A stretch of 64,000 nucleotides of DNA from Sipunculus nudus (lineage: Eukaryota > Annelida > Sipuncula > Golfingiida > Sipunculidae). The stretch covers positions 27,045,729 to 27,109,728 of the forward strand of contig CM049314.1 of the NCBI GenBank assembly GCA_026874595.1, given 5' to 3'. This document shows, piece by piece, positions 13,376 to 50,558 of the stretch; the stretch's first letter is position 1; each line of letters starts with the position of its first letter. Under the pieces are notes generated by a model. It was not told the DNA's origin. It was given only the letters and a program-made list of their open reading frames with translations, and did no database searches. The position numbers and the translations under genes were made by a program.

Positions 13376-14690
13376 ATGGATATATTCCTTGCACGGTGGG
13401 TTATCATATTGCAGCTGGTTTCAGTTAATCGTGTACAAACAAGCACGGTAAGCACTTGTCAATATAGGCCAGACTGCGGACTATGCTTTTTCTCCGAATG
13501 GAATGGAATACTCAATACTTCATTTCCAACGTATTTTGCCTCCCTTAAAACCTTAAACTTTTCAAGGTGTGAGGTATCGTACATAGGATCAAACATTTTC
13601 ATGACTATGAAGTCCATTCGGCATCTCGTACTGTCACATAATGATATAACATCCATAGACGATAACATGTTCTATGGTCTGTTAGAAGTCAATGAACTAT
13701 ACCTAGACAATAACGAAATAGAAAAGTTGCAGCATCGTGCATTTCGAAATTTGTATCAGCTGGAAATCCTGGACCTTCACAGTAACAAGCTGACGCACAT
13801 ACCGGCAGGAAACTTCCAGGACTTATCACGTTTGCAGTATTTGGATCTCAGCTCTAATAACTTAACCAGTATACACCTTTGATCGATTCCTCACATTGAA
13901 TAATCTGAAAGTGGTTAGACTGTCAAATAACATGACATATCAGGCCACATTCAGAAATACCTGGCCTGCCTCGTTTGAGTGGCTTGATTTAACATCAAAC
14001 AAGATCAGGCTATTACCATACTTACCGCCTTGTAACGCTACAATAACATTAATGGATAACGATATTCACTGTGGTTGCAAACTGCCAAATGATACATTCC
14101 TGCCATCAGAAACATGCAAGGTACAGTTTAAATGTGCTTCACCTAAACATTTCACACATTTGTCTCCTTTTGTTAATTTTTCCAACGGCGCTTTTGGCGT
14201 GAAGCGATTAGCCATAATAAAATATTCCACGACACTGCTGGGAAAGCTCAAGGAATTTCTGTATATGTACAATACCACTTTTTCTTGTATGATTACTCTA
14301 CCAGACTTTGAATTCAACGAAACTCACATTAACTGTCATGCCTTTTCTAACCCTGCACCAACTGTTGAGTTCTACAGACAAGGTGAATTACTGGGATCAC
14401 AGAAGCCATATAAAGACGGAGCAGGCGTAACCTTTGTGTCAGCAGAGACAAACACTTCACAAGATGAATACACCTGCATTGCAAGAAACGATGTGACCAT
14501 GGAGGAGGTTGTGGGAACGCTAACGGTAGGGACAATAGCAGGAACAAGCTCTACGGGCCGTATAAAAGGACCCTCAGCCGATATTCCCGCCCAAGTGTTT
14601 AACCCCATTGTCACGGTTTTAATTTCTTCTGCCATGGTAACTCTAACTCTTATCACTTTCACTTTGTACATAGGAAAGTGGTTTTGTTAA
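13376..14690 (+). pseudogene. LRR-Ig transmembrane protein, copy 1 (single exon, 1-nt frameshift)
   Basis: The encoded family protein is a type I cell-surface protein. The start at 13376 (MDIFLARW) is chosen because the paralogue begins at the same point; an ATG five codons upstream is not conserved. A signal peptide spans about residues 1-22 and LRRNT cysteines are at 28, 34 and 37. About seven LRRs follow (for example LRHLVLSHNDIT, LEILDLHSNKLTHIP), then an LRRCT (NDIHCGCKLP..ETC..QFKC) and an Ig domain with cysteines in INCHAFSNPAP and DEYTCIARND. A helix near the end precedes the C-terminus GKWFC. There are many N-glycosylation sequons. A TGA at 13880-13882 breaks the frame in LRR 5. Alignment to copy 2 shows one extra base in ACACCTTTGATC relative to ACATTTTAATC, and one-base removal restores the reading through to 14690. 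This is either a young pseudogene or an assembly indel. A recognition or adhesion role is inferred from the architecture; there is no signalling domain. Confidence 0.85.
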
Positions 14691-15072
14691 AGTGCGAATA
14701 CTGGTTTAAGTGTAAAAGGTAGGGTGTCGCTTATGGTCAGAGATATTTTATGGCAGAAACAAGCTTTTTTGAACATTCCAGTGTTCTAGTAATTAAAACG
14801 AAAATGTATAAATATTGAGATATATATTGTCACATAATATGTGTCACCTGTTTATGATCCTCTTGTTACTGAATAAGTTTAAAGGTAATGTTCAAAATGT
14901 TTTAAACGGTTAAGAATTCGCACGGTTAACATTTTAGCCTTATGTACAAAACTGTCCATAATCTTATGGAATTATGTGTAACATATGGCCCACCATTATA
15001 CTGGAACATATTAGCACATTAGTTGACTATCGTTTTGAAAAGCTGACAGTTCGGCAGAACCTTCACTGAGAT

Positions 15073-15078
15073 AATAAA
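15073..15078 (+). terminator. Polyadenylation signal candidate, LRR-Ig gene 1
   Basis: AATAAA about 385 bp after the stop codon. It sits near the 3' edge of the duplicated block, and copy 2 lacks an exact match at this position. Confidence 0.3.
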
Positions 15079-15249
15079 GGAATCGTAGCACAGTTCCAAG
15101 GTTATATTTCAAAAATGACTTTGTACGCGGTTAACGTTTATTGTAAACACCCAAAAGTAATCTTTCACCATAAATCGGGGTTAATTCTACAGCGCCATCA
15201 CCATCTGCAAAAGGCCAATACAAGATGCGTAGGTCACATAACCTGCAGA

Positions 15250-15410
15250 TATATGGTAAACGTAATCTGTAATTGTAATCAATTACAATCGATTTCATTT
15301 CATTTTAGTGATCGTAATCGATTCGATTCCTTTTAAACAAAGTAATTTTGATAGTATTTGATCACTCTACCAATGTAATTGCAACTCATTGTAAATAGAT
15401 TACTTTGCTA
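15250..15410. repeat. GTAATCG/ATCGATT-rich element end
   Basis: Dense reiteration of TAATTGTAATCAATTACA, GATCGTAATCGATTCGATT and AAACAAAGTAATT. A similar block lies at 20745-20885. Such TAATCGATTAC-rich ends are often transposon subterminal repeats. The hAT-like remnant at 15.9 kb lies just inside. Confidence 0.4.
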
Positions 15411-15917
15411 TTTTCCAATTTTAAAAAGATACAGTTAGTATTTCCGTAAAAAACGCATATTTCATGTTTACCACTGATGTAAAACATCATTAAGAGATAA
15501 TTAGTCAGACATCGAATCATACTTGAGTAGTAGATGTGTCTGATTGAACCTAGCTGGATCGTGTGTGCGAGCATATTGGGATGAAATGATAGAAGAATAT
15601 ATAAAATCAGAGTTTGATATTAGATATCTATATCTTGTTTAGTATGGTAATTATAACTTTATGAAAGGCCATGTTGAAGTGCTCACTGTAACAACTCTTA
15701 GCTCTGCTTACTTGTGCAACTGGTATTGTAAAAATGAGCAGTTATAGTGAGCCAGGTATTCTTTACCTACCAGTTACTTCTTATTTATAAGTTATCCTTA
15801 AGTCCGAGCAGTTAATCTTAATTATGTAACCTATCGTTATAAATATTTAGACATTTGATAGGCAAATTAGATTCAAGTCCAACTTAGTAACTGTCACACT
15901 GAAACTGCCTCTCTCTT
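15411..15917. other. Non-coding stretch
   Basis: AT-rich; no recognisable coding sequence. It may be the eroded interior of the hAT element whose C-terminus follows. Confidence 0.35.
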
Positions 15918-16013
15918 CCAGCTACATCAGCTCTGGTCGATAGATTGTTCAGTGTTGCCAGTAAAGTTTTCTGCCCTGATAGTGGAGGAGCATATGTAGC
16001 AAATTCGTTTTGA
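15918..16013 (+). pseudogene. hAT transposase C-terminal (dimerisation) fragment
   Basis: The frame reads PATSALVDRLFSVASKVFCP then DSGGAYVANSF and a stop. This is the signature of the hAT-family C-terminal dimerisation domain (PATSA.VER.FS.AGK....R..L). The usual second half, with the conserved R..L and the hydrophobic helix, is degraded. In-frame stops occur upstream and no BED finger or catalytic region is readable. Inferred to be a dead DNA transposon relic. Confidence 0.65.
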
Positions 16014-16752
16014 GTAAATTTTATTTGTAAAATTATGACACCCCTTGCATTTTTGTTCTTCATCTTTCTATGAAGCATAAAAAACATGGTGTCAATTTTT
16101 TAAATCAAAGTGACCCGTTAACATACCAGATATGTTGGCTATACACCCAAAATATTAAATGCTATATACACATATGGTTTATTTTCTCCTTTAAATATGA
16201 TGGCATCTGCCAATATTTCATTCTAATCCGTTTGCTTATACTCTGTACACAAGTAGTGAGAAGCTTCACCAATGCGAGATCAGTAGCGCCAAATATATAC
16301 AGTGGACACGCCACGTGGTAGCTGTACTGCGTGACTTCACAAATCAAAATTTTGCAAGCATCAAACCGGTCTTTCTTCTGTGTTTCTTCTTTAATTTCAC
16401 TTCTCCTTGTTTTTTTTTTTAGTTCTGCATGCTCAAGATTGCAGTCTGCTCATGCAGTCTGCTAATGGTAAACAAACACACGGGGACTATGTTTACTCGC
16501 ATACAAAATCATAACAACCAATAAAACAGGCTAACTGATGAGTTCAGTGTTGATAAGTGTTGATAAGTAACGAGCTCTTTAGCTCTTGAGTCATAACAAA
16601 TGGATTTGACATTTAAATCAGTGATGATTTATTATTGGCAAATAATATCACACTTCATATAAGTACCACATTTTTGGCCCCAGGATTCAAGGTAAGGCCA
16701 CAATGACAATTGTCAGGTCCTTAATACAGGTCTTTTTCCTTATAATTACATT
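16014..16752. other. Non-coding stretch
   Basis: Only overlapping short frames on both strands (16070-16347); none has recognisable motifs. Confidence 0.4.
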
Positions 16753-17604
16753 TGTTACGGGTGCCCTTTTATTGTGTGCAATTTTCTTACAGATGATTGT
16801 TATATTGTGCGCACGGGTGTTCCATGTGTTGTTGGCGTTTGGTTTGTGTGCCACGCGTAGCTCGTGCTGTGGCGGCCTCGCCTGGCCGTATGTTGCAGGC
16901 TCGGTTTAATCCGCATTGGTTGAACCCTAGATCCACAGCGTTCTTTGTTCTGGTATGTTCTTGAACGTGTGTACTGTGTTAGATTCCTTGGAATGTTTAG
17001 GCCGTGGAAGGTTCACGGCTGGAGATGAAAAGTTATAAATAGGGGGCTGTGTTTTAGAGCCGAAAGAGAGGTGAGAGAATATTCCAGAGGACACAGAAGC
17101 GTGTATGTCAGTTTGTGGGACCTATCCCGATAAGTGCTGCATTTATAGATTTTCTTCAGATTTACTTCTGGATTTTTGTGACGAATCTTATTTGGTCTTC
17201 AGTTTACTTTTTGGATTGTTACAAGAGTTTTACATTGGACTGTTATTCTTCGAGAGAATTCGTGTGAACTGTTCGTCAGGTTTATACATTTTAAAGGATT
17301 TACCGCTGTGACAGTGGTGGTATCCAGGTACTGTGCACTTTGTTTATTTTACTGTATGATTGTATTGATTTTCTGTTATACTGCTGTTATACTGTGTAAT
17401 TGTATTGATTTAGTGTATTGTAATGTTACGGTTGTTTTAAGAATAAATTATATTTATTTGTTAAGAAAAAACCACTGACTTCTTTTTTCATTCCCCTAGA
17501 CATTTCCCGCTGCCTAGTGTTACAGAATCTGATTTTTTTTATCTCCTTGACTGAATGTATGTTCATCACGCATACGTGATCTGTTGATACTAGGTTCCGT
17601 AACA
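16753..17604 (+). mobile_element. Solo LTR, copy 1
   Basis: Begins TGTTACGG and ends CCGTAACA, a perfect 8-bp inverted terminus of the TG..CA type. It is flanked by CATT on both sides (16749-16752 and 17605-17608), a candidate 4-bp target duplication. It contains a TATAAATA box at 17034-17041 and AATAAA at 17442-17447 in the order expected for U3-R-U5. A second copy lies at 45382-46139 and shares, for example, GGCTGTGTTTTAGAGCCGA and GTGGTGGTATCCAGGTACTG. No internal gag-pol is attached, so each copy is a recombined solo LTR. Two short frames inside are not genes. Superfamily (Gypsy-like?) not determined. Confidence 0.75.
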
Positions 17605-20600
17605 CATTGCATTACTGTACGTGTACTCCCTTTTTACATTCCATAGAAGATGATACACGCTTTCATGGGCGGTATAGAAAGATGCTTGCAGTTATTCCAA
17701 TTCACAAATTAATCAACTTATTTTTTCTGGTAATCTTAATTTGAGCTTAGTGTTTATTTCTTACCACATATGGGTTCAGGAAATACATAAAGCCAGCAAG
17801 AATTATTTAAGAGATCTGTCATATTTGTTTGAATTAAAAGGACGAAACCATCATAATTTAAGGTTTTGCAGTGTATGACCTTGATGGCATTCATACACAG
17901 CTGTAATTTCTTCCATATTCATCTAAACATTGCAAATGAAATAGTGTTTAATTTAACAGGTTATAACCTTCGAATTCAATATTTGCCAAATCTGGATACA
18001 GATGATTTAATTATACTCACGTAAATTTAACAAATTGTTCATGTTTTTGTTGGAGAGAGAAGTTAGTCAGATCCTTTGAGACTCAGTCACTTGACATTTG
18101 GATATGAATGCTGACAACACACAGAAGACTTTCTGGATTATAACACAAATGAATTTTCTATCACAATGTGCCATGTCAGAAGGGTTAAATCTAGTAACTA
18201 ATTAAAGAAAATTTGAGTGTGTTCCTCAACCTCAATATTGACTTTCTCCATGTGTATCCTCTAACTAAAATGTCAATAAATTTGTTATTGTTTCTATTAC
18301 ATTTATTCAAATTACAATAATAATATGGGAATATTTGACTGAATACCTGACAATATGGAAACTTTTAATTACATTTAAGGCATAAGTTTTCTTCATAAGT
18401 TGCACATCATTCACCTTGTGTGCCAACTCGAAATATTATCAGAGAAATTAGCATTAGTTAAGTAAGCCTCCAACATTACAATGTTTGTGTTTTTGATAAA
18501 AAAAATAAAATATAACAAAATCGACTCAGATGAATCATGTACAATGAGCTTCTGCCTCTGACATGCTGTGCATTTACTTACTTTAGCAAATAAAGCATAT
18601 GCAGTGGCAGCCATCCCATATTCCATGAAGTATCATAAAAATATCTTCATTTTAATCTGAATCTTAAATTTTTGCCTTTATTATCCAGATAGTGTACTTC
18701 TCATTCACTCTATAGATTACTGTTTTCTTTAATAGAATGTTGTACCAATGATCTTGCCTGTAGGAAAGGAACAGCTTATCTTGCCATTGTGTGATTTCAA
18801 ATTAAATTTCCTGTGAGTTTAATTTCTTGGCAAAAACTAACGCAAATTATCTTTATATCTTTTAAGCCATTTCAGGATAATGAAAAAATGGGACAAGTGT
18901 TTAATAATAATCAATACTTAACTTATTTTCCATTGTTCTGTCTCATTTCTGTTAAGATTTTTTTTTGTTTTATTATTGTATTGGTGTTGCCTAAATGATC
19001 CTATTTCATATACCCAGAAATGTAAATAAAAAATTAACCCTCCAAAGAAAACATTTAAAAAAATGACCTGTAAGGGGGGGGGTTAAGGTGGGATAGAAAA
19101 TCATATGCAAACACCTAGGAGAAAGTGATATGACTCAATGTGACACTGTAGAATATTGCTTAGATTTAAAATTAAATTTCAAAAGAAGATTGTTTTCCTG
19201 AACTGAACTTTACTTTCATATATTTTCCTTAAAAATGTCTTTCCCCTAACAGACTCCTAAATTTATTTTTCATGAAAATATGTTTTCCATTCAATGTTAA
19301 TTATGTGTCCTTAATTATGTGTCTCATCCTACTGTAAACATCTGTAAATATTTGTTTACTGTTAACTACCTGACGTCCAGGGCGGATAGAAATTATCACT
19401 GAAGAGTTAAATAATTCATTGAAACACCTGACCTACAGAGGGTCTGTTTAACCTGAATGTTATGTAATTGCTGCACAAAGAAGTTTTTGGGATTGTGTGA
19501 CCAGCGTTGTAAATATGTTTTGCTTGGTCATATGTCCTCAAAAAGATACATTGTGAATTTTGGACTAAGGAACTTTTCCTAAAATTTTGTCATGGATCAG
19601 TTAGATGTAAGAGAGGATCTGGCACTAAATACGGCCAAAGTTGCTTCTTTTGTCTTCTGTTTATTCTTCACCAAAAAAAATCTATAAAATATCCCTCCTC
19701 TAAAAACTTTTATTAATTCTTTCTTTGCTCATGACCAAAATATCCACAAAGCTACCTAAACTTCTTTAATAACATCTAGATATACTCTTTGGATTACCTA
19801 GCCGTAAAAGCTGTAAATGGATTCACTATCGGCGAGTGAGATAATGGTGTCAGTGATAAAAAAAATGGATTGACAAAGTTGCGAAGTCATGATGGAAGTA
19901 TAACAGGGTCATTTTCATATATTCCGTATAAATGAAGCTAGATATTTATCTACTAGTGAGAACCAGGGATCACAGAGCTATACTGTATACGATACATGTA
20001 CAGGTTACCTGAAATCGGCATACCTATCACAAAATGGACTGCAATGAAATTGTGTGGACCATTGGACAACGAAGAACTGATTAATTGTTCATTGTTATAC
20101 TGTTAATTGTTAAGTTGATGTTTATGCGGATCCAAGTAATAGCGGAGGTATGCGCTCTATAAGTGCTCTCTAAGTTTTATTTATAAATGTGTTAATGAAG
20201 TTTTATGAATTTAGTCCAAGTTATTATGAGCTTATGGATCACACTGACCATTCTGAGTTGTAATGTGGCAAGGTTTTCCTTAAAAATAAATATACATATT
20301 GACCCTCGATTTTATCCCTAAAATCAAATTTGGCCCGAAAAAAAAAATGACCAAACCCCTTCAGAAAAATTGACACCAAATATTTCCAGAGATTAAGGCT
20401 TTAGGATTACAAAAATGTATGGTGTTCACTATTTACAAAGAAACATTACTCGGTGACATATGCTCCCACACTATGAGCGCTGTTACCTCACAGATAAACA
20501 AGTTGAAAGACATGTTTATAAAGTGCAAGAAGCATTTGAAGCTATGTAAATCATTTCTAATGTTACTTCAGACTGCTGACTACATCCATTTTATAACTTG

Positions 20601-21079: not shown

Positions 21080-21900
21080 CTAATGAAAATGCAAATAGCC
21101 TGTATGGCCAATGTCATTTTGTATACAAGACTGTATTTTGGGACACATTGGTTTCATAACATTTACTATTTGATATTTATGCCTTGTTTTTTTTTTTAAT
21201 ATAACAAGGCGCAACCAATTATGTTGTACATAGTCAAATGCTTTTGCAAAATCAATGTATAAACAGTAAAACCTTCCTTTTCTTCCAAGTAAGTAATTTT
21301 TAACTAAAGCATGCAAAATGAATGCCTGGTAAATTGTAGAATACCCATTTCTATGACCATTCACATAAAATATTCATTCGCTCTACTGAAAGAGCGTATA
21401 GTTTAAACCTTTAGAAAAATGTTCCAGTAATATTTAATTAGGATATCCCATTATAACAAGCAGAAATATTTAAAGAACCCTTCTTGTGTATAAGCAATAT
21501 TATTTTCCTTTCATCAAATAAAGATCCCTTATGCAAAATATTATTAAATTAAAGTGATTTTATAATATTCAGCTGAAGTCAATCTGGGCCATGGGTTTTT
21601 TTACTGCTTATTTGATAGCCTTAGTTCAAGTACTGTTATATCATTGTTAAGTTATCTACATATAAAATTACAGTTTTAATTATTGTTGAAGTATGTGTCA
21701 GCCACTTCATTTTTATTTTCATTAAGTAAATCTCTGAAATGATTAAACAAATCATCTGCGGGGATATAATTAACACTCTTCAGTTTCTTAAAGCAACGTT
21801 TAATACAGACCCATAACTTTATAGTTTTACCCTTTTTTTACTATTTAAAGTGTGCGCTTGTTTGAATTTATTTTTGTTATCCCAATAATACTTTAATTAT
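21080..21900 (-). mobile_element. Non-LTR retrotransposon (LINE) fragment, RT palm region
   Basis: The minus strand encodes part of a reverse transcriptase. Near 21.7-21.8 kb there is KRCFKKLKSVNYIPADDLF then FNHFRDLLNENKNEV, the region before the RT domain. Further on is a degraded fingers region. An open frame (21364 to 21080) then reads HRNGYSTIYQAFILHAL, then GRFYCLYIDFAKAFDYVQH, the palm motif carrying the first catalytic Asp (F.DFSKAFD.V.H), and VMKPMCPKIQSCI. The fragment stops before the second catalytic motif (Y.DD). Frameshifts separate the parts, so it is dead. It differs from the 7.8-8.45 kb LINE in region covered; whether they are one family cannot be told. Confidence 0.75.
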
Positions 21901-23589: not shown

Positions 23590-24450
23590 GCTTAAACATC
23601 AAGGTCCTAGTCACCAGTTTTCGAGCTTTTCGAGGAACTTGATTACAACAATTAGTGTTTCAATTTGAGGAAAAATATGCGATACTTCAAAAGTTATTGG
23701 AATCACCAAAAAAAAAATTTATCCAATTGTACTATGATGATGAAGATAAAGGTCATCTTTTTTCTAACGTGTCCGAGATATTGGTAAAGACATTTCACAG
23801 TTGAATTTCATGAAATATATCGTATGATTCAAAAGTTATAGCGTTCACATAGCGTTGATAGCGTTGAATGTCCAAGTCAGGGTCAACAGTTTTCGAGCTT
23901 CTAAATGGAATTTATTTGAATAATTAGTGTTTCAAATTTGATGAAAAAAATATGCGCTACACCTAATGTTATGGGGTTCCAAAATAATTCTTGTTGGCCC
24001 ATTTGACCATGATGTTGAAGGTCAAGGTCACCGGTTTTCCAAATCGTCCGAGATTTTGGTATGGACATCTGACAAGTCCAATTTCATGAAATAATAATGA
24101 ATTGTTCTAAAGTTAAAATGTGCACAAATAATTTCTATTCTGGCTGATTGACCTAGAAGACCCAGGTAAAGGTCACCAATTTTCATGCTACTCAAAGAAC
24201 TTGATTAAACATATTATTGTTCCAAATTTAAGGAAAAATTATGCGATACTTCTAAAGTTATGGGTTCACACAAATTCTATTTAAGCCTATTTGATCTGAT
24301 GATAAAGGTCAAGGTCACCAGTTTTCAAACTCGTCCGAGATATTGATATAAATAATTTAAATTAAAAAATTCCATAAAAAGTTCGACTTTTTCAAAAGTT
24401 ATCGTGTTCACAAGAAATGACAACGACGACCAGGACGCCGACTACGAGGA
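23590..24450 (+). repeat. ~285-bp tandem repeat, about three units
   Basis: Units starting near 23605, 23892 and 24178 share, in order: GGTCACC.GTTTTC.A.CT, GAACTTGATTA, ATTAGTGTTTCAA.TTGA, GAAAAATATGCGATACTTC, AAAGTTAT, TGATGATGAAGGTCAAGGTC, and CGTCCGAGATATTGGTA followed by AATTTCATGAAATA. Units differ by 20-30 percent. The array ends in a GACGACCAGGACGCCGACTA tract and a C homopolymer at 24466-24476. A related sequence occurs at 46.44-46.94 kb. Confidence 0.7.
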
Positions 24451-25356
24451 CAGACTAATATATGCCCCCCCCCCACCCAATCCCATGGGAGGGGAGGCAT
24501 AATTTGGGCAAAAGGCTCCTGTGTCTCAATAATTAATGCCTTGATAATGGATTGCCTTGATTCTTGCTTTGAGTATTAATCTTGGGTAGCTTCATCCGTT
24601 CATGAATTTTCCTTTCAAATTTTTACGCGTTATTAAATTTATTTTTAAAGCAAAAGGAGTACAGGGCACAAATCGTAACGGTTCGATCTAGATTTTTCTC
24701 ACGAAATATCCAGAGAAGTCCTTGAAAGTTTCAGTTAAATCAGATTAAGGTCATTGCGACATACAGTCTCTGAGTTTAAAGACGTGCTTTGGCACCCACG
24801 ATTATTGAAAATTGTTACAAAGGCTGCTGTAATTAGATAAGTAATGTATAAATTATAATGATTTTTCTTTCATATTGATCATGGACAATTTCGTCATTTT
24901 TTTCATAATATGGTTGAGATTTGGAAATTGGGTTAGACATATCACAAATGTAGGCGTCAAACAATTTTTAAAACAAATAAAGAACGTGTATCATTTACAC
25001 ATATTACTACCATCATGTACAATTAGAAGAAAACCCAATCTTTTTAAATTCCTCATAACTGCCCAAGACACCAGTGCAAAAACACTAGAAGGACAGCTGT
25101 CCTATTTGATAGAATTTATCGTGTCCGAGAGCAGCTGAACGTCATGAACTCTGGGTCACTTGTTAAAGACATATTAATAAAATATGTGTACGTATTAAGA
25201 ATAATTGAGATCAGAAGGTTTTATTTTTTAAACAACTGACATGTAGAGAATATACAGATCAATATACAGTTTTGGGACAAATTTCCTTAAATACACAATT
25301 CCCCATGATATAGATATATGCAAAAATGCTAGACGTTTAAGCCTGTGAAGAATCTG

Positions 25357-25358
<2 letters not shown>
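24451..25358. other. Non-coding; includes a reversed hairpin-repeat edge
   Basis: Around 25127-25160 the family edge phrase appears inverted (AGCTGAACGTCATGAACTC followed by GGGTCACTTGTTA). Upstream of it is a 87-codon frame (24875-25138) without recognisable motifs, probably repeat interior. Confidence 0.45.

Positions 25359-25421
<63 letters not shown>
25359..25421. repeat. (TA)n microsatellite
   Basis: Perfect TA run of about 63 bp. Confidence 0.97.
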
Positions 25422-25426
<5 letters not shown>

Positions 25427-25741
25427 ATTTTCATGGAGAAATACAGGTCTAAAAGGTGATTGATTACACGTTTTTGCAGAACCTACTTTTTTAAAAACAT
25501 CTTGGGTTTGAAATATGTTAAGAATATTGATAAATACACTACACGTAAAATAGTAGGTTTGCTACTGGATCTGTCCTAATACGACTTAAGGCACATAACA
25601 GGCAGGGGTATTTTGCAATGGGTTATGTGAGTGTCATGGCGTAAGAATGGCAACACAAAATTTTACCCTATGAACGATATGCACATTTTATCCAGGTCTT
25701 ATACTATTCTTATTAATACTTGATTAATTAATGTATATTTA

Positions 25742-26870: not shown

Positions 26871-27088
26871 CAACTCTGAACCAGCTTGTCTTACCAAAAA
26901 ATAAGGTATAATTACAAAAAAAATAAAAAGCCTGCATCACAAATTTTGTTTATGTAATAAAGTATGGTAACAAATAAAAACACTTTGTTTGTTTGTACTT
27001 GACTAGCATAAAATACAAATGTTAAAAGTACACATTCATTGTTTACTGATTCGCACCGTTGAAAAACGGAACCTAAGCTCTAGCATAG

Positions 27089-27089
<1 letters not shown>

Positions 27090-27154
<65 letters not shown>
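27090..27154. repeat. (AT)n microsatellite
   Basis: Perfect AT run of about 65 bp. Confidence 0.97.
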
Positions 27155-27156
<2 letters not shown>

Positions 27157-27363
27157 CACAATGGCGAAGCCTAGTGTCTTATTTACATTGTTGTACCTTC
27201 ACTGTAGTCGCTTTATGGCCTGTAACCAGCTACGCTCCGATAAATATGTTCTTCTTTATGCTAGGCTGGTCTTGCTGAACATCGGCAGTATAAGTGTTCA
27301 TCCACAAAGAGTGATCTGCTGAATGGAAAACTGGTTACATTTTTTCTCTTCTGACATGAATAT

Positions 27364-27365
<2 letters not shown>

Positions 27366-27427
<62 letters not shown>
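27366..27427. repeat. (AT)n microsatellite
   Basis: Perfect AT run of about 62 bp. Confidence 0.97.
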
Positions 27428-27429
<2 letters not shown>

Positions 27430-27629
27430 CAATAGCAAACATGAAATCCTACAAATTTTAGCCACTACTATAACTGTAAGGAATCAAGAAAATCGAGATT
27501 TAATTATATTGACAATTAACTGAATTTGAAGTAAAGTCCTTACGTGTGTTTAAAAGAATTACGCATACACAAAAAGAGGATTCTCTGAATATCATTCAGT
27601 ATCATGTTCATATATATAAGCACCATTAC

Positions 27630-27717: not shown

Positions 27718-27739
27718 CTATAATAAAAAAAAAAATTAC

Positions 27740-36950: not shown

Positions 36951-37050
36951 ACGCAGCCACAGTGGATAGCTGTGACAAACAGATTAACCATGGCCCTGGG
37001 ATTTACGCCCCGCGCATCAAATTCTAACAATTTAATTATCTCTCTAATAA

Positions 37051-37945: not shown

Positions 37946-38126
37946 AAAGCAATGAGACAGAATATTTAATTCCCCCCTGCGACTGTGTGCATGGTTCTGG
38001 GTTCTAATGAAATAAACAGGATCACACCTTAAACTTTATTTCTTTTACCAGTCCTGTGATCCTTACACCAATTAAATCAGCTGCTAACAGCAGCAATCAA
38101 CCCCTGGACAATTGATATCAGATATT

Positions 38127-38130
<4 letters not shown>

Positions 38131-38178
<48 letters not shown>
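38131..38178. repeat. (TA)n microsatellite at duplication edge
   Basis: Perfect TA run at the 5' edge of duplication copy 2, matching the TA run at 11866-11932 in copy 1. Confidence 0.97.
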
Positions 38179-38180
<2 letters not shown>

Positions 38181-40874
38181 TTCATATAACATTGCTGATC
38201 AGCCATATGAACTATCTGATGAAGAACACTTTTTATAAAAATTTATTTTAGTGTAGACTCATCAATTTCTTTGTACACTTAGGTTCATCGATAGTTCATC
38301 GTTCATAGTTCATCGATATGCTAGTCGAAGGGACTAGTGACTTTTCTTCGGCACAACCGGAGTTCAAGACAACCAATATTAATTATATTCAACCTTCTTC
38401 AGCCTTGATTATTATGTATAATCATGTATAGGGCCTATATTAAATAGTTCTAACAAATGTTTGCGTGAAAGAACAACATAAATGTTATATTAATTTTTTT
38501 AATAATAATAAAAAAGCACATAAGTACCGACAAAAATAGGATCAAGTAAATAAAAAAGTAGCAGTAAAGCAGTATAACGTCCATGGTAAATAAGAATTAG
38601 TCTGATAGTTGTCATATTCCTCCCAATATAAACAGTCCTGTATGTATATCCTACACTCATCGAAGGTAAAGATTTCATTATGTTTTGGTTTATTAATAAC
38701 TTCTCATTAATCAATGAATCGAATTAATGCTTTGTCGGCGAGAGCTGAAAAGCATAATTATGAGTGACTAATTGGCAAACAGGTAAACAACGGACCAGGT
38801 GTGTATAGCATCGCGCCTCATGGGTGAGATCCTTTTCGGTATAAATTATATAACTGGTCATCACGGCCGTAGGTGTGATTAATTGATAGACCATGCACAA
38901 CTGTTATCTAATATTAAAGAGGCTTGACTTCGAGTCGAGCAACAGGGCCATCGCGCATGATATGTAAGAGCATTCCCGGGAATAATTATATATACGCATT
39001 CCCAGTTTTAATTATATATACGTATAACTGGTATATATGAAAATGGTGTAGATCTACCCACATGTTTATAATCCACCACGTGACTAACAATCCATTTGCG
39101 CAAAACAGGAAAAACATGTGCCCCCAAAAGTACGATATGAAAGGACCAAAATGTGTGATATGAAGTTAACTATACTTTAGATAATAAGAGACATTTTCTG
39201 TTAAATTCAAGGTCATTTCAAGGATTTTAAGGGGATTTCTGTGATTAGAGTAATCATTGCATGATAGGATGATACACAGAAATGGATTTAATTTGCATGT
39301 GAAATAGTCATATGAGACATTTCTCGCACAGGTAATACTTGCAGGCTAGACAATAATGGCGACACGTTCAGGGACAATAGCTAGATTATAATTTAATTTT
39401 TGTTACAAAATTATCGACAAGTACTTTAACTTACAGTTGAACGACCAATCGCATAAAACGAGCGTAGGAAAGACTTAGGATGTGATTTTGTTTCAAGGCA
39501 GACAGCTATACCAGAAATATGACCACCGTCAAGGGTTTCAGAATAATCATGTTGCCAAAGCAGCATTTGACCTTGAAGTTTAAATTTCAAGTTCAAAAGT
39601 CTAAAAGGCCAAATGTGGAAAAATTTTATTTCAACTTATTATGTTCAATTTATTTAAAGATTGCACTAAACATAAAAATCGATAAGATACTGAGTTTTCT
39701 GGAAATAAATGGAATGTATGTAGAATGTTGTGGAAATAAATGGCCAGTACTCCTTCATTGTAGGATTCCTGTAATACATACGCGTTTTATTTTCATAAAA
39801 CTTTTGCTTCCAGTCTTACCAGATTTAGCACAATGATGATGGGTTTTATCTTGTATTATTGAATAGTTTTCTCCATTTGATAGTTAAGACCAAGGTCAAT
39901 AGGTCAAGTTGAAGAAATTATCGCCCTTCCGTTAGATATCGTTAAAGAAAAATATAACTCTGTACAAGTTCCCCTATCAATCCGCATTTTTTTCGAATCC
40001 ATTTAGTTAGACAAATCAGGTGACTACAATCAGCTTTTAGTTTTTCTCGAAGCAACTTGAGTTTACACTGAAATAGAACAAGAATAAATGGTGATCGTGA
40101 AATATTTTGTGACCTTCAAGGTCAAATGTCAAGTTAAACGGTGTCAAATTATTTTTTTTTATGAATCAAAAATTAATATTCTTTCATTTCAATATGTATT
40201 AGAAACGCCTTTGGCTTACCACCGAATTACAAGAGATACGTGACCTCCTTTTTTGTCCAAATTCCATATTAATTTTCTTTTATGATTAATAGGACACTTT
40301 TTAACCCAGACAATATCACAGTAATTTCATTGTAAATTTAATCAATCTGGTTTTCTCAGACTGCTCTTCTCAACTTCTTTAAAAGGATCTCCTACGACTC
40401 TGAAACAACGTATAGAGGGGAGAGATGGAATCGGCTATACAGTCAAGACAATAACATTACTTTTATTATAAAACAAAATACCTCGAACCCTTTTACTTTT
40501 GTCTATGCATGTATTAAGTCCAAATATACTTTCAGGGTTGGAGAATCAACAGAAGAAATAGGAATGAGTGGCACTGCAAAGACACTGAATTGATTTTCTG
40601 CAAGTAGTCATATTTGTTTTACGTTTAATGACAGCTTTTGTTTGGACACGAACAACTACAAGAGAAACTTCATTATACATACCTAAAACTACATACCAGA
40701 AACAAACAAAAAAGTGCATTATTGTTTGATATTCGTCGTCTTCGGTACTGAAAAAAAACCTTTAACTATATTGACCAAAAAACCATATGTTGTTACTAGT
40801 AATCAACTCTTGATAACATCCTGTATCTTATATTTATCCCGATGTCACATGAGTTTATATATGCTTAAGTTGCC

Positions 40875-40880
40875 TATATA
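40875..40880 (+). promoter_or_regulatory. TATA box candidate for LRR-Ig gene 2
   Basis: TATATA 66 bp upstream of the ATG, aligned with TATAAA of copy 1 within a conserved promoter block (CATAACCACA just downstream, then CGAGTGTTAGC). Confidence 0.45.
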
Positions 40881-40940
40881 CATAACCACAGCAGTGCTAG
40901 CTTGAACGAGTGTTAGCATATCCTACTGCAACAACAAACA

Positions 40941-42014
40941 ATGGATGTATTCCTCGAAAAATGGGTTATCATGTCGCTCCTGGTTTTAGTTAATACTGTC
41001 TCAAAAAGCACGATCAGCATTTGCGGATATCGGCGAGACTGCGGACTTTGTGTTATCCCTGACTGGAACGGAATACTCAATACTTCATTTCCTAAAATTT
41101 ATTCCTCTCTTACAACCTTGAACTTTTCAAGTTGTGAGGTATCATACATAGGATCAAATGTCTTTACAAATATGAAGGCCATTCTGGAACTGGTATTGTC
41201 ACATAATGATATCACATCCATAGGAGATAATGCGTTCTCTGGTATGTCAAGTGTCAATAAACTATACCTGGATTATAATGAAATAGAAAAGTTGCAACAT
41301 CATGCATTTAGAACCTTGTATCAGCTTGAATTCCTGGTCCTCCACAGCAACAGGCTGATGCACTTACCGACAGGAATCTTCAAGGACTTATCTCAGCTAA
41401 AGTATTTGGATCTAAGCTATAATCACTTAACAAGTATACATTTTAATCAATTCCTCATATTAATTAATCTCAAAGTGCTTAGACTGTCAAATAACATGTT
41501 ACACCAGGTCACATTCAGAAATACCTGGCCTGTCTCGCTTGAATGGCTGGACTTGACATCAAATAAGATGAGGATATTACCAAACTTTCCCCCTTGTAAC
41601 GGTACCATAATATTACTGAAAAACGACATTCATTGCGGCTGTAACGTTCCATCAGAATCATGCAAGGTACAGTTTCAATGTTTTTCGCCAAAACGTTTCA
41701 AACATTTATCTCCTGTTGTTAATGTTTCCTACGGCGCTTTTGGCGTAAAACAATTAGCCATGGTAGAAAAATCCACGACAATGCTGGGAAAACTCCAGGA
41801 ATTTCTGTATATGTACAATACCACCTCCTCCTGTATGATTGCTCCCCCAGACTTAAAATTCAACGGAACTCATATTAACTGTCATGCCTTTTCTAACCCT
41901 GCCCCAACTGTTGAGTTGTACAGACAAGGGGAATTAATAGGGACTCAGAAGCCATATGTTGAAGAGTCAGGCGTAACCTATGTGTCAGTTGAGAGAAACA
42001 ATTCACAAGATTAA
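40941..42014 (+). CDS. LRR-Ig protein, copy 2 (truncated by one nonsense codon)
   Basis: An open frame of 357 codons from MDVFLEKW. Signal peptide about 1-22; LRRNT cysteines 28, 34 and 37 (CGYRRDCGLC); seven LRRs (for example LELVLSHNDITSI, LEWLDLTSNKMRILP); LRRCT (DIHCGCNVPSESCKVQFQC); and an Ig domain with its first cysteine at 314 (INCHAFSNPAP). The frame ends at TAA 42012-42014, where copy 1 has GAA (QDEYTC becomes QD-stop), just before the second Ig cysteine and the helix. One G-to-T change explains it. As it stands the product would be a soluble protein with an incomplete Ig domain. The frame reopens immediately to 42236. Either a very recent pseudogene, a segregating null allele, or a secreted truncated form. 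Ligand unknown. Confidence 0.85.
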   Translation: MDVFLEKWVIMSLLVLVNTVSKSTISICGYRRDCGLCVIPDWNGILNTSFPKIYSSLTTLNFSSCEVSYIGSNVFTNMKAILELVLSHNDITSIGDNAFSGMSSVNKLYLDYNEIEKLQHHAFRTLYQLEFLVLHSNRLMHLPTGIFKDLSQLKYLDLSYNHLTSIHFNQFLILINLKVLRLSNNMLHQVTFRNTWPVSLEWLDLTSNKMRILPNFPPCNGTIILLKNDIHCGCNVPSESCKVQFQCFSPKRFKHLSPVVNVSYGAFGVKQLAMVEKSTTMLGKLQEFLYMYNTTSSCMIAPPDLKFNGTHINCHAFSNPAPTVELYRQGELIGTQKPYVEESGVTYVSVERNNSQD

Positions 42015-42236
42015 TACACCTGCATTGCAAGAAATGATGTAACCATGGAGGAGGTTGTGGGATCGCTGCAGGTTCAGACGATAGCTGAAACAAGCTCTAC
42101 GGGCCGTATAAAAAGACCCTCAGCTGATATTCCCGGCCCAGTGCTTAACCCCATTGTAACGGTTCTTATTTATCTTTCTCTGGTAGCTGTCATGCTTATA
42201 ACGTTCACGTTATACATACTGCAGTGGTTTTGTTAA
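42015..42236 (+). pseudogene. Orphaned 3' part of LRR-Ig copy 2 (Ig end, helix, stop)
   Basis: Same frame as the upstream CDS. It reads YTCIARNDVTMEEVVGSL (second Ig cysteine), a Ser/Thr-rich juxtamembrane segment, then a helix (NPIVTVLIYLSLVAVM then LITFTLYIL) and QWFC-stop. Read through, the protein would be 431 residues with a tail of only four residues, the same end as copy 1 (GKWFC). The absence of decay after the stop codon indicates a recent nonsense mutation. Confidence 0.8.
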
Positions 42237-42745
42237 ACAGTCCGAAGAAAACCGTGAACATGGCGTCAGATCTAAGAAAACTAAGCTATAACATGTAAAT
42301 CAAGGAATAGAAGTGCGGATGTTGGCTCGTGTATGCAAAATTAGGATGTGGATTATGAATAGACATGTTTCACGACAGGAATAAGCTTACGTGTACAATT
42401 CCGTTTTCTGGCAGAGCTAGACAAATTAAAATGAAAATGTATAAATATTTAGAGATCTACTGTCACATAATATACATAATATGATTATGATCTTCCTGGT
42501 ACTGTATGGGCAAGGTTGAAGGAAGTGCTTGCAATATTTTAAATATTTAAGGTTACACGCAGTTAAAATTTTCAGATTTATGCACTATACTGTCACGACC
42601 TGATCTGATAAAAAAATATATTCGACCCTTCAACTGATTCAAGATCGTACTTTAGTTGAACGTTATTTTGACAATTTGATAGTTTGACAGAATTTTAACT
42701 GAGAAAAAAATTAAATGTATGAATCGTAACACGGTTCCCAAGGTA

Positions 42746-43040: not shown

Positions 43041-43790
43041 ATTCATGTTAGAATATAACTTGATTAATCATATTAATCATATTTAGTAGCCATCCTCTGT
43101 GCCTTGTGGAAACTCTGTTTCTGTTGGTGGCAACTAGACTCAATTGTGGCTCTGTAGTATATTACACAGCCACAGGTTACTGCCTTCGTTTCTCTAGCGG
43201 AGGGAACGAATATAAATGGTAGACGCAGCACTTGATTTGAGTACATCTGATCCTGTGTGTTGGGTGCCTGTCCTCGTGAGCCTGCGTGGTTGTTTCAGCT
43301 AGCGGTGTGCATGTGTTAATCATTATTGCAACTGCCGTGAGTGTTCTACTGACCGGACCCCTGGCTACACACGTGATTGTTTTAGCCTGCGAGATGTATG
43401 TATTACATTTCAGCTCGGTATGCCCGGAGTTTAGCAGAAAGACAGGAAGTCTCTGTGGTGTGGGTACTTGCTGCCACCCCCCCCCCCCAAAGTCAAGTTA
43501 CAGAACCACCTAAGCCTGATGTAAACAACAATTATTTATATAAAATGTTCTTATATAATCTTAGATAAAAGCTGCAACTGTACATCAATTCTTCAAAATG
43601 TGCCATGGTCAAAGTTAAAATAACCTTACTCAAATCACTACAAAATTGCGATCTGATATCTGTTATACACTTAAATCTTAATTAAATAAAGTTGCATGTT
43701 TGAAAAAAAGGCTCTAGTTACCATGAAAAGTGAGAAAATATATTTTTTCCTCTTTCGAAAAGGTACATACTGGTCTGATCCTAAACCTTT
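43041..43790. other. Unclassified block with TATA-like and C-run features
   Basis: A GC-richer stretch (43.08-43.5 kb) contains GAATATAAATGG near 43210 and a C run at 43478-43488. It resembles an LTR in composition, but I could not find matching ends or a second copy. The 75-codon frame at 43286-43513 ends in the C run and has no family match. Confidence 0.3.
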
Positions 43791-44115
43791 ACAAATTACT
43801 CAATGCTGGCATGTCTGGTACATATAGGAAACATATAAAGGAATGCGTGTGATAAAAAGATACAAAACAGCTCTTGAAGTGTAATAATATGTACAAATGG
43901 ACAATGGAAGAGTTTCTTTAATTTCTCGAAGGAACGAAGAATCAATGGTCCAGTTTGAGGTGTGCTAGGAGAAGTTAGGAATATCCAACTATTTGAATTT
44001 TGGATCCGCAGTTCCAAAGGTTTCAAAATGTGTCCTGTTAACGGGCGGCAGAACGGACGGACAAAGGACAAAAGACCAACGTAATAGCTCAGATGACTAA
44101 TAGTCAGTTGAGCTA
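43791..44115 (+). repeat. Hairpin-repeat 3' piece
   Basis: Contains AGTTCCAAAGGTTTCAAAAT then GTGTCCTGTTAACGGGCGGC, AACGGACGGAC, and the hairpin TAGCTCAGATGACTAATAGT then CAGTTGAGCTA (44085-44115). Confidence 0.65.
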
Positions 44116-44116
44116 A

Positions 44117-46270: not shown

Positions 46271-46282
46271 TAGGGTAATACA

Positions 46283-48172
46283 AAAAAACAAATGACTCAT
46301 GGGTCACGACGCTCAGATGACTAGCATGCCATTTTAGTCTTCCATTCACAACAGGAACGTATCGTCTGAAAGCCAAACTGAGATTAATCTCAGATGTGAT
46401 CTTGACCTTTACCAAGCTAGACAGTGAAGACGGATTTCATTCATGAATGGTCAAAACAGAATAATAAGATCAAGGTAACGAGTACTTGGTTTAAACTAAT
46501 TGTCTGTCAAATTTGATGACAAAGATTTATCACTTTCACATGAAATTCTAAAGATGATGAAATTTAGTTGTATCTTAATGATCAAGGTCAAGGTCACAAT
46601 TTTACCTTTTCAAAGAAACGACTTGTGATTCAACTTTGGGGGTAAAATCTTCAGTACTTCAAAAGTAAAAGGGGTCAGAATTATATTATATTTACGCATA
46701 ACCTGCATTGAAGGTCAAGGTCAAGTTTTCAGACTCCTCCACAATTTTTGCAGAAACAACTGGTGTGTCTAATTTGAAGAAAAATATGGAGTACTCCTAA
46801 AATTACAGGGGTCATAATAAATTACATATTTCTGCAGATATGGATGTCATCAAAGAACTGATATGTATGCCGTTTCAAATTTGAGAAAAAATACTTCCAG
46901 TACTTCTGGGTTTTAGTGTTCACAAATATTCTCCATTTTGGCTCATTTTAATACTAAAGGATGAACACATGATAAAACACCAGGTTTCAGGACACTAGAT
47001 GAAACACAGCTGGTAAACCGGTGCCATTGATGTAATTTGGCAGTCGCAAATATAAAGGAAAACTTTGTTCAAATATATAAAAACAGGTGAAACCACAGCT
47101 GAGAAACTGTCATTTGATTGTCACAAAAAAGAAAACAAATAGAAAATACAGGTGGCACCACCAGTCTTATGCAACTAATCTAACTGTCCATGATCAATAA
47201 GATTAACAACATTCATTTCATGTTTTAATCATCGAGATACTCGAGGTTTTGTATCAAATTTTTGATTATATCTTTCGGTGCACGAACGTTCCCCATAGCC
47301 TCAGAGAATATAGGTAGAGGTGACTTAATTTCCGGTTTCCAAGGATATTTTTTTTAACACACTGGCTTTCATTTAGAGGTGTTAGGGTCCATCGGTTCCG
47401 ATATGTTACGTGCTAAGTAACCTCCGCTATAGATCAGCATGACTGAGGTAAACAAAAGACATAATAGGTCATGACGCTCAGCTGAACTGACATACAGTTG
47501 ATACAAGGATAAATTGTTGTTATTATGATCTGTTGAAAAATATTTGTAAAGCACATTGATCAATGGATAGACTTCCAGAGTCCTCAAGAGCCTGTTTTTG
47601 CTCATAATCCTCAGAAAATAGGTAACAGCGATCTAACTTTAGGTTTCCAAGAAGATTTTACTAGGAAATGTAACATGTTCCCTTTTGACTAGGCTACTCT
47701 AAACCTGTTTTTTCACAGTGACATAGCTCAAAGAAACAAGTTCATAGTGACCTTATTTTGGATGTCAAAAGAGATATTACAATACCCATTGTTATTAAGA
47801 AAGGCATTTCTGAATCCAACAATTAAGATTTTTGCCCTGTCGTACTTTCTGGGGGCTAAAAAATAGCTTTTTTGCCCGAAACACATTGATTTTGGGTTAG
47901 AGCCTTATTTCAGGTTCCAAAAGAGACTTGTTAAGGACTTCGCTTGATGTTGCATTGGATGACTCTTAGTCTAAAAGGAAATATTGGTGGCCTGCCTGAC
48001 TGTCTGGGTGCTTAAAGGTCGCAATGACATAATATGAGGTTGACTATTTGGCCAGAACCTCCTTGGACGTTGCGTCAGAATATTCTAGGCTTAACGATTA
48101 CAATATGTGCCCTGTTTAATTTTCTTGGTGCTCACAATAATTGTTTTTACCAGTGGACACAGGACTGTTATA

Positions 48173-48220
<48 letters not shown>

Positions 48221-48880
48221 ATACTACTAATACTATCTAATTTCAAGTTTCCAAAGACATTTTCTCTGAATGTCACATTAAATGATTCTAGGTCAAATGA
48301 ATACAATTTGTGCCCTTTCTGATTATCTAGATGCCAAAATAATGTTTTAATTCAATAGAATATAATTAACGTTACCTTATGTCAATTGCCCAATGATATT
48401 TGTCTTGGTCCTCCGTGGATGTACCGTTAGAAGTATCTAGTTCTAACTGTTTACGCCTGTGTCAGCCAGACTACTTTATTTGGGGTCTCAAAAATAGAGA
48501 AAATGCATTCATTAGTAGAAAAATACAGGTGGTGCCACCAGTCTTCATGAATTGATGAAACATTCCATGATAATGTCCATGGAAAAATCATTGCAGTAAA
48601 TGCGTCAATTATTCAGATACTGGAGCTTTTGTATCAAATTTTCAATTATTCTGGGGCTACGTACGATTCCCATAGCTCGGAGGATATGTCGCAATCACTT
48701 AATTTCGCGTTACCCAGGATGTAATTTATGGAACCCCATGGATTTCCAGTTAGAAGTTTCTAGGTCTAGCGGTTACAATATGTGACCTGCTAACAGACAA
48801 CTGTACTGTCGTCCGGACGGACGGACGACGGACAAATAATAATCGCTAAAGCTCAGATGACTTTCAGTCATTTTGGCTTA
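46283..48880 (+). repeat. Tract of hairpin-repeat family copies
   Basis: Edges at 46284 (CAAATGACTCATGGGTCACG then ACGCTCAGATGA) and 47463 (AATAGGTCATGACGCTCAGC). Between them is sequence related to the 23.6-24.4 kb tandem array (AAGGTCAAGGTCA, AGTACTTCAAAAGTAAA; 46.44-46.95 kb). From 46.97 kb come GTTTCAGGACACTAGATGAA modules. From 47.66 to 48.4 kb are several degenerate repeats of TTCTAGG...ACAATATGTGCCCTG. The end has GGACGGACGGACGACGGAC (48815-48833) and GCTAAAGCTCAGATGACTTT. No genes. Confidence 0.6.
48176..48216. repeat. (TA)n microsatellite
   Basis: Perfect TA run of about 41 bp. Frames on both strands across it are artefacts. Confidence 0.97.
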
Positions 48881-49248
48881 TAACAATGGCACAGAGGTTT
48901 ACATGATGCATCAGAATCGGACTTAACAAATAATAAAGATGTGTACTGAGTTTACATGTTTCCTCTACATTGCACTTATCTGGTTAAAGTTAGCATGATC
49001 ATATTCATCCAACACGCAATAAAATATATGGAAGGTAAATTGCTGATAAAATCTTGATTAGAAGGTTCCTAGTTATGTGTCAACTTCATGCATTAACATT
49101 AGATAACACTACATGCCCCAGATCTATTTATATCGCAACTTCCTGGTTTTTTGATTACTATGATATATTGGAAGCTACTAGTTTATCGCAAGTCTGGAGT
49201 GAACCTTTCCCAACATGCCATCGTCTGAGCTAGAAGAAACATATAATC

Positions 49249-50558
49249 ATGGATAAGCGGAAGTTACTCTCTACAGTGTCTTTCAAATTTTTGCTGATAT
49301 TCAATCATTTTTCAGAAGTCAGTAACCGGTATGCCTGTGAACGTACAGATAGCTGCCTTTTACACGGTATGCCTGGATGGACTGGAGTACTAAATGTTGA
49401 ACTTTTGGAACCCCTGGCGGTACTGACAACATTGAACCTGTCGAACTGTAGTGTGTTCTCATTGGGAACAAATGCCTCTTCGGAGGAGGTATCGGTAAAA
49501 TACATGCATCTGTCTTCAAATTATATTGATAAAATCGCCAAAGGCCAACTTCTTAAACTACGTACACTTCACGAGTTGTATATGGACAGGAATAAAGTAG
49601 AGATTATCGAGCAGGGTGCATTCCAAAATCTGACGGAATAATCGATTCTGGATCAGAGTCACAACAATCTCACGGGCTTCATTTATGAGATATTTCAGGG
49701 ACTGATCAATTTGCAGTATTTAAATCTGGGTCATAACCAGTTGACTTATTTTACATCAGATCATTTCACCGTATTGCCAAGACTGGCCACACTTCGTCTC
49801 CCACATAACAATATAAAGAGGGTAGAAGCCAAAGTCAGCTTGCCGGAGTCTCTTGATTGGCTTGATCTCACAGCGAACAAGCTTCATGGTCTCCCCTATT
49901 TTCAGTCATGTGGTGCGACCATCACCTTGATGGAAAATGACATTCACTGTGGTTGTATAGTTCCAAACTGCACCATCCATCTCTCAGATAAGTGTAGGAT
50001 GCAGTTCAAATGTTCTTCACCCACGCATCTCGAACAGGTAATACCAGACGTGAACATCAGTTACAATTATTATGGATGTAACAATCTTACTGTTATTGAT
50101 GCATCTACTGTAGAGGAAAACGACCTTCCAAGGCACTCGGACTTTATTAATTTTATTGGCTTTTGCAACATCTCAGCGCCACATCTTAAATTTAACGGCA
50201 CTCACATTATGTGTTGGGGATTTGCTAACCCTGCTCCTGTTCTTGAATTACACAAATCTGGAAAGATAGAATGGTACGTAAATCCAGATAAGGATGAATC
50301 TGGGTTCACCTATTTGTCAAGATTTGAGGAAAATTTGCTCACGGCAATTACACGTGCGTATCTCGGAATAACATAACAAAGGAAGAGCTCAATGTCACTC
50401 TTTTGGTTTCTGGTCACGAGAATGAGAGGACAAGGAGCAGTACTGAGGAAACCAGAGTCATCATTCAAGACATTGTGTTTTGTCCACCCAGTGTATTCTT
50501 ACTGTTTTTTGCTTCGGCAGCCCTGATTCTCAGTTGTAACCTTTGTTCAAACGCATAG
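49249..50558 (+). pseudogene. LRR-Ig transmembrane protein, copy 3 (divergent; one stop, one frameshift)
   Basis: Starts MDKRKLLSTVSFKFLLIF (signal peptide to about residue 25); LRRNT YACERTDSCLLHGMPGW; LRRs (LTTLNLSNCSV, LHELYMDRNKVEII, LQYLNLGHNQLT, LDWLDLTANKLHGLP); LRRCT NDIHCGCIVPNCTIHLSDKC; Ig first cysteine in THIMCWGFANPAP. Two lesions are seen. A TAA at 49639-49641 falls where a Leu-like codon is expected (ENLTE-stop-SILD), and the same frame continues. A one-base loss near 50331-50345 shifts the frame (GNYTCVSRNNIT is read from 50343 in the next frame), and that frame runs to TAG at 50556-50558. After the Ig domain come a Ser/Thr/Glu-rich linker and a terminal helix PPSVFLLFFASAALIL, then CNLCSNA. 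Same architecture as copies 1-2 but much more diverged, so an older paralogue. Confidence 0.85.

Follow-up and report, generated by a model that had tools for sequence, protein, structure and literature searches.

Broken LRR-Ig genes of Sipunculus nudus as probable recent losses from a living tandem cluster under birth-and-death evolution with gene conversion

When every near-full-length copy of a gene family in a stretch of DNA is broken, is the family dead, is the assembly bad, or have working genes been lost only recently? The question is raised by 64,000 nucleotides of the Sipunculus nudus genome (assembly GCA_026874595.1, contig CM049314.1, here C9, positions 27,045,729-27,109,728; the whole stretch is called the window), which carry copies of a gene encoding leucine-rich repeats (LRRs) and an immunoglobulin (Ig) domain. 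C9 is a 79.8-Mb chromosome in an assembly of 1,426,538,692 bases and 153 contigs (N50, 80.9 Mb), 17 of which measure 61-111 Mb. The initial annotation, made from the sequence alone, had proposed either a rapidly turning-over recognition-gene family with many young nulls or a noisy assembly. Our analysis indicates that the three longest copies are most probably recently killed members of a living tandem cluster evolving by birth and death with gene conversion, and not products of a noisy assembly. The lesions, the open paralogues, the past constraint on copies 1 and 2, the private lesions, and the mosaic copies are all directly observed.

The window contains three near-full-length LRR-Ig copies, all on the + strand:

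13376..14690, + strand: copy 1, a single-exon LRR-Ig-transmembrane (TM) gene whose frame is interrupted at about 13877-13882; an ATG farther upstream, at 13361, is an alternative start
40941..42236, + strand: copy 2, an LRR-Ig-TM gene with one in-frame TAA at 42012-42014
49249..50558, + strand: copy 3, an LRR-Ig-TM gene with a TAA at 49639-49641 and a frame change near 50337

In copy 1, the open frame from 13361 or 13376 stops at a TGA at 13880-13882, and homology resumes in the next frame up to the stop at 14688-14690; in the alignment the lesion is one extra base, absent from copy 2 and from a decayed relative at 35.43 Mb (megabase positions are those of C9 throughout). After its TAA, copy 2 keeps homology in the same frame up to the stop at 42234-42236, and the position of this TAA is occupied by a sense codon in copy 1 and the 35.43-Mb copy. 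Beyond its frame change, copy 3 is open until it stops at 50556-50558. Pieces of the three copies matched a profile built from 15 intact relatives with domain E values of 4.5e-131 to 6.6e-10. Frames, alignments, and profile matches thus bear out the initial description of three near-complete copies in one orientation and the positions it gave for their lesions. That the lesions are merely hidden in introns is ruled out, since the intact paralogues are open single exons across the same positions. Copies 1 and 2 represent a duplication at the DNA level that includes the flanks (79% identity over ~1.69 kb, 13021-14691 and 40596-42237), with more matches 2-4 kb downstream, and copy 3 shares 93.5-93.6% DNA identity, flanks included, with an intact gene at 28.538 Mb.

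Protein searches of the assembly with copy 2 and with an intact gene at 27.966 Mb (L047) as queries returned 129 and 100 matching rows, respectively. Loci were counted by joining rows by place, and the counts are lower bounds, with part of the candidates scored and the five fragments of the window standing outside the total. Between 27.04 and 28.69 Mb of C9 (~1.65 Mb) there are at least 41 LRR-Ig-related loci, of which 19 are open and full length (437-525 codons), 13, including copies 1 to 3, are near full length and broken, and 9 are fragments. The search of the genome for intact paralogues was therefore successful, with all 19 of these open full-length frames on C9. Six of the 41 loci (four open, two broken) are of a distant 525-codon type with 25-28% identity, known from search-table rows alone; leaving this type aside, the cluster has 15 open members, whose sequences were read, and 11 broken near-full-length ones. 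An intact relative of the 525-codon type lies ~3 kb ahead of the window start, and the closer type has its nearest open member at 27,141,027, ~31 kb beyond the window end. About 40% of the near-full-length copies in the cluster are broken (13 of 32). The earlier statement that every copy in the window is lesioned holds for all three near-full-length copies, but with such a proportion of broken genes this is not exceptional (p = 0.058).

If the lesions were consensus errors of a noisy assembly, with all three genes intact in the animal, one would expect what is in fact seen in each case, a single small change within a long, otherwise open frame. The error rate needed, four lesions in ~3.9 kb, would however leave the 19 open frames of ~1.3 kb with a probability near 1e-11. 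Histone genes of the same assembly, taken as a control, were open in 148 of 150 rows (an estimated ~40 kb), with the caveat that these arrays are homogenised and strongly conserved and that 7 rows had frames of thousands of codons, probably through masked N. In the copy 2 search, rows with stops were concentrated on C9, 20 of 48 compared with 3 of 81 on the other chromosomes (p = 9e-8), a comparison limited in that a row is not the same as an independent gene and that distant pseudogenes more easily escape detection; the search with the 27.966-Mb gene added one broken row, on C1, with three stops. Two broken copies at 27.35 and 28.11 Mb, 99.5% identical, have the same TGA at the same position, and each copy of a distant pair (27.42 and 28.17 Mb) contains one TGA, the positions of which were not compared. 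The open paralogues, the histone control, and the shared TGA lead us to reject a noisy assembly as the general explanation and to consider it very unlikely that these three genes are intact in the animal on this account. The histone genes themselves form ~5.35-kb tandem units near the ends of C1 and C2 and on the small scaffolds C30-C50, many with identical scores.

How long ago copies 1 and 2 were lost can be judged from their divergence. The ratio of nonsynonymous to synonymous divergence (dN/dS) between them is 0.39 at a dS of 0.47 in the 5' piece and 0.45 at a dS of 0.33 in the 3' piece, and the synonymous excess is significant (p = 7e-9). All 27 pairs computed gave a dN/dS below 1, the remaining 25 ranging from 0.23 to 0.75. 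Had copies 1 and 2 been unconstrained since their split, ~20-40 disabling mutations would be expected in each, assuming an indel rate of 0.05-0.15 per substitution, and one was seen in each. Both lesions are private, being absent from the other copy and from the 35.43-Mb relative, a copy with 76-80% identity to copy 1 whose frame is broken by six gaps. Given one lesion, the 95% upper bound on the time since loss is ~0.02-0.045 substitutions per site. Because their divergence was constrained and each carries one private lesion in place of ~20-40, copies 1 and 2 are young nulls. On a tree of 22 rows, from which the first piece of copy 1 was left out, the fewest changes between the intact and broken states were five, and since copies 1 and 2 have different lesions, there were at least six losses. 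Private single lesions, past constraint, and open paralogues together support the first of the two proposals of the initial annotation, that of many young nulls in a living family that turns over.

The further suggestion that this is a recognition gene family under rapid turnover fared less evenly. Turnover by duplication, loss, and gene conversion is shown, but dN/dS was below 1 in all pairs computed. Diversifying selection on the concave face of the LRRs, the usual site of ligand binding, was not found: the ratio of nonsynonymous to synonymous differences per site (pN/pS) was 0.43 in 11 close pairs and 0.38 in 6 mid-range pairs, compared with 0.54 and 0.52, respectively, in the rest of the LRR, on small counts and with broken copies in some pairs. 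Concave positions are, if anything, more constrained than other LRR positions, and with no sign of diversifying selection there an arms race is unsupported.

The three copies differ in the state of their closest kin. The sisters of copy 3 on the tree are two intact genes (27.966 and 28.538 Mb; support, 100/99) that share 98% protein identity with each other; with the 27.966-Mb gene copy 3 shares 93% protein identity over 363 residues. The assembly contains no intact member of the copy 1/copy 2 subfamily, the relatives with more than ~55% identity to copy 2 being copy 1 and the 35.43-Mb copies. One of the latter, a decayed copy of this type at C9:35,425,610-35,430,389 (L014), has its cap-Ig part repeated head to tail at least four times at a spacing of ~800-813 bases, which is a tandem amplification of a piece of a dead gene. 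A tandem-repeat search of the 35.43-Mb stretch gave no row, the repeat unit exceeding the 500-base limit of that program.

Members of the cluster also proved to be mosaic. Trees of the LRR half (computed without copy 1) and of the cap-Ig-membrane half conflict: in the first, the broken 27.35/28.11-Mb pair falls beside copy 3 and the intact sisters of copy 3 (100/100), in the second beside the 27.603-Mb gene (100/100). Forcing the alternative grouping was rejected in each half by the approximately unbiased (AU) test (p = 1.6e-68 and 4.2e-8), applied to groups named once the trees had been seen. A permutation scan of third positions (1000 shuffles, uncorrected) found runs at p <= 0.001 in 12 of 177 pairs; the 177 were drawn from 190, of which 13 with less than 15% mismatch were set aside, and both pieces of copy 1 as well as one further locus (L062) were left out. 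These runs reduce to two tracts. That at codons 161-223 is common to the broken 27.35/28.11-Mb pair, copy 3, and the sisters of copy 3, and that at codons 329-386 is common to these sisters (more weakly to copy 3) and the genes at 27.873 and 28.427 Mb. In copy 3 they correspond to the following:

49720..49908, + strand: conversion-like tract with 60 variable third positions identical to those of the otherwise diverged broken copy at C9:28.105 Mb
50245..50319, + strand: second, weaker conversion-like tract with 24 variable third positions identical to those of the genes at C9:27.873 and 28.427 Mb (p = 0.001)

Gene conversion thus extends to broken copies, in tracts that do not tell donor from recipient. 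A further possibility is that broken copies keep a function, be it as truncated secreted LRR proteins, as frameshift or read-through products, or as donors in the conversion of intact copies. Copy 3 and the broken 28.11-Mb copy do have the 60-position tract in common with intact genes, and copy 1 breaks at CTT-TGA, which we take to be a slippery-looking stop. The mixture of lesion kinds and the privacy of the lesions in copies 1 and 2 speak against such a role, as does the silence of the tracts on direction, and we consider it highly improbable. A programmed +1 shift at CTT-TGA in particular is unsupported, the extra base being private to copy 1. In chicken antibodies, pseudogene V segments form a conversion archive. 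By analogy, the broken copies might be an archive of LRR and Ig segments from which conversion supplies a small number of expressed receptors without tails, whether in the germ line or perhaps even in somatic cells, which we regard as a long shot.

The cluster also contains repeated blocks. The loci of 27.25-27.46 Mb are found again, in unchanged order, at 28.04-28.21 Mb, as are those of 27.87-27.97 Mb at 28.42-28.54 Mb (offset, 0.55-0.79 Mb), and pairs compared with their flanks are 93.5-99.5% identical. Furthermore, the order copy 3-27.141-27.187 Mb is repeated as 28.538-28.626-28.685 Mb, where all three genes are open, with DNA identities of 93.6%, 94.2%, and 95.3%. Such blocks could be recent segmental duplications or an uncollapsed haplotype. 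That part of the cluster is a second haplotype placed head to tail, inflating the number of intact genes, is suggested by the conserved order of the first two pairs of blocks and by two pairs with 98.7% and 99.5% identity over 4 kb. Other pairs, though, differ by 2-6.5% with their flanks, unlike a single uniform heterozygosity, some types are present three times (27.187, 27.971, and 28.685 Mb; 27.141, 27.813, and 28.626 Mb), and several distinct open genes remain on the 22-row tree after pairs are collapsed, so this explanation is possible but on balance doubtful. If it were correct, some of the 19 open frames would be alleles and copy 3 might be a null allele of an intact gene.

A related explanation is that the lesions are real but segregating, with null alleles on the sequenced haplotype and working copies 1, 2, and 3 on others. 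In its favour, every lesion appears young, copies 1 and 2 carry private ones, and the 28.538-Mb gene would be the intact allele of copy 3 if the 28.538-28.626-28.685 Mb series were a second haplotype. In the pearl oyster, moreover, immune gene clusters show megabase-scale differences between haplotypes, according to the part of PMC9646362 consulted. For copies 1 and 2, on the other hand, no second haplotype was found: outside its own locus, copy 1 matches nothing in the assembly at more than 82%, and the best non-self protein match of copy 2 is copy 1. We hold segregating nulls to be a possible but less likely alternative. If null alleles do segregate, the cluster would be well suited to asking what maintains variable gene content in such animals.

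Recent killing within a living cluster is the reading that we prefer, and several points weigh against it. Four of the 19 open frames are of the 525-codon type, seen as table rows alone and with 25-28% identity, and some of the open paralogues may be alleles from uncollapsed haplotypes. The branch of copies 1 and 2 is extinct in the assembly, so that "living" is in the past tense there, past constraint implying that it was alive recently. For copy 3 alone, neutrality was not rejected (p = 0.08). The choice of the AU-tested groups after inspection of the trees belongs here as well, and any individual lesion could be a consensus error or a null allele, the evidence being the sequence of one assembly.

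In the model that we favour, the window would be the left part of a living tandem cluster of intronless genes, the closer members of which are predicted to encode a small surface protein with a signal-like start, ~7 LRRs, and a cysteine cap followed by a single Ig domain, a single membrane span, and hardly any tail. Copies would be added by segmental duplication, LRR and Ig stretches would be exchanged among them by gene conversion, and copies would be killed at a high rate by point mutations and indels. What birth-and-death evolution with conversion calls for is found here, in that intact and dead copies are mixed, recent duplicates are present, and paralogues are mosaic. Each of these elements is known from other multigene families. 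A literature search, which included the LRRIG genes of molluscs and amphioxus, found no published description of such an LRR-Ig cluster, which does not prove that none is in print. The cluster would offer a dated, countable case of an animal receptor cluster gaining, shuffling, and losing genes, and it illustrates that a window in which all copies are broken need not imply a dead family or a bad assembly.

The predicted architecture rests on several searches. Pfam detected tandem LRRs in copies 1 to 3; LRR_8 matched copy 2 at 2.8e-37 and the seven intact paralogues scanned at 9e-25 to 3e-52. Copy 1 exceeded the Ig_2 cut-off of 27 with 34.1 bits; five of the seven paralogues matched Ig_2 at E <= 0.01, all below the cut-off, and two had no Ig match. 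The Ig cysteines C322 and C369 are invariant in all 11 aligned copies. The start is hydrophobic, and C30, C36, C234, C236, C249, and C255 are invariant in the aligned copies, but neither LRRNT nor LRRCT gave a model match. Near the C terminus, the mean hydropathy over 18 residues is 2.3-2.8 in 17 of 17 copies, a value at which a single-pass span and a glycosylphosphatidylinositol (GPI) signal are indistinguishable. Past the predicted span there are 3-14 residues in 15 of the 17 copies, 33 in that at 28.214 Mb, and 24 in that at 28.685 Mb. The 28.214-Mb gene (L041) and the near-identical 27.461-Mb gene (L040) differ in this tail, 33 versus 9 residues, and the longer tail ends in a tyrosine motif like TxYxxV, which we presume to resemble a switch motif. 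No Pfam match to a TIR domain was obtained in the seven intact paralogues or in five pieces from the window. Being nearly tailless and without a TIR match, most members look like surface-tethered binding proteins without a signalling capacity of their own. In immunity or some other form of recognition, they would presumably bind extracellular ligands through the LRR-Ig ectodomain and serve in adhesion, as co-receptors, or as decoys.

The PDB chains matched by the profile were LRR ectodomains, namely, those of the IGF acid-labile subunit, LRRC15, TLR3, TLR13, LGR4, and LRIG1. Matches to bacterial NCBIfam models, far under their cut-offs, reflected LRR similarity alone. The best structure matches listed end at position 232 of the 438 in the profile and cover the LRRs but not the Ig domain. 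Like LRIG1, whose ectodomain chain 4u7l is among the matches listed, the family combines an LRR solenoid, Ig domain, and membrane span; unlike LRIG1, it has one Ig domain, nearly no cytoplasmic tail in 15 of the 17 copies, and an intronless tandem arrangement. LINGO, AMIGO, and the LRRIG genes of molluscs and amphioxus likewise specify extracellular LRR-Ig membrane proteins. With Toll-like receptors the family shares an LRR ectodomain, with high-scoring profile matches to the TLR3 and TLR13 chains, but the lack of a TIR match in the sequences scanned, the 3-33 residues past the span in the 17 copies, and the Ig domain argue against that identity. The lamprey variable lymphocyte receptor type, in which LRR cassettes are joined somatically to an incomplete germline gene, is likewise disfavoured by the complete contiguous frames of 19 loci in the assembly and, again, by the Ig domain.

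Other variable families offer parallels in organisation, with no homology claimed. In the parts of the sources consulted, the sea urchin Sp185/333 genes are described as clustered, similar to each other, segmentally duplicated, and unstable, and as short two-exon genes (PMC3091723, PMC5103432); clustering and segmental duplication are shared with the present family, unlike the single-exon LRR-Ig structure. The pearl oyster account, as far as consulted, places immune gene clusters within non-syntenic haplotype regions on scaffold 9 and describes clustered Ig-domain genes as here, but the Ig proteins often carry fibronectin III domains, and LRR-Ig genes are undescribed in that part of it (PMC9646362). 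Plant NBS-LRR proteins are intracellular receptors. Their gene clusters similarly combine LRR genes with a high share of pseudogenes and frequent loss, about half of the annotated R genes of the Cucurbitaceae being pseudogenes in the portion of the report consulted (PMC3679737).

Besides the three copies, the window contains five LRR-Ig fragments in the same orientation:

3357..3586, + strand: decayed N-terminal fragment, profile positions 14-90
6581..6736, + strand: N-terminal fragment, profile positions 1-53
8395..8535, + strand: Ig-domain fragment, profile positions 343-389
58685..59202, + strand: decayed cap-Ig-TM fragment, matched by the family profile
62676..63200, + strand: decayed cap-Ig-TM fragment, matched by the family profile, in the second arm of a 3.1-kb tandem duplication

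For each fragment, the best-scoring piece matched the profile of intact relatives at an E value of 1.4e-11 to 2.8e-5, and across copies and fragments these values exclude chance matches. The five fragments of the initial annotation are thereby confirmed, but their positions fall outside the 13376-50558 that it stated. The fragments at 6581 and 8395 may be remnants of a single decayed gene. The tandem duplication (56615-59704 and 60647-63693) is 91.5% identical, and each arm holds one decayed Ig fragment.

Elsewhere in the window, a 97-codon open frame at 21080-21373 on the - strand resembles, by eye, part of the reverse transcriptase of a non-LTR element. Short repeats containing words like GGTCAAGGTCACC occupy 23592-24370, and long AT dinucleotide runs are found at 10072-10185, 11855-11990, 25350-25471, 27077-27470, 38122-38227, and 48166-48275.

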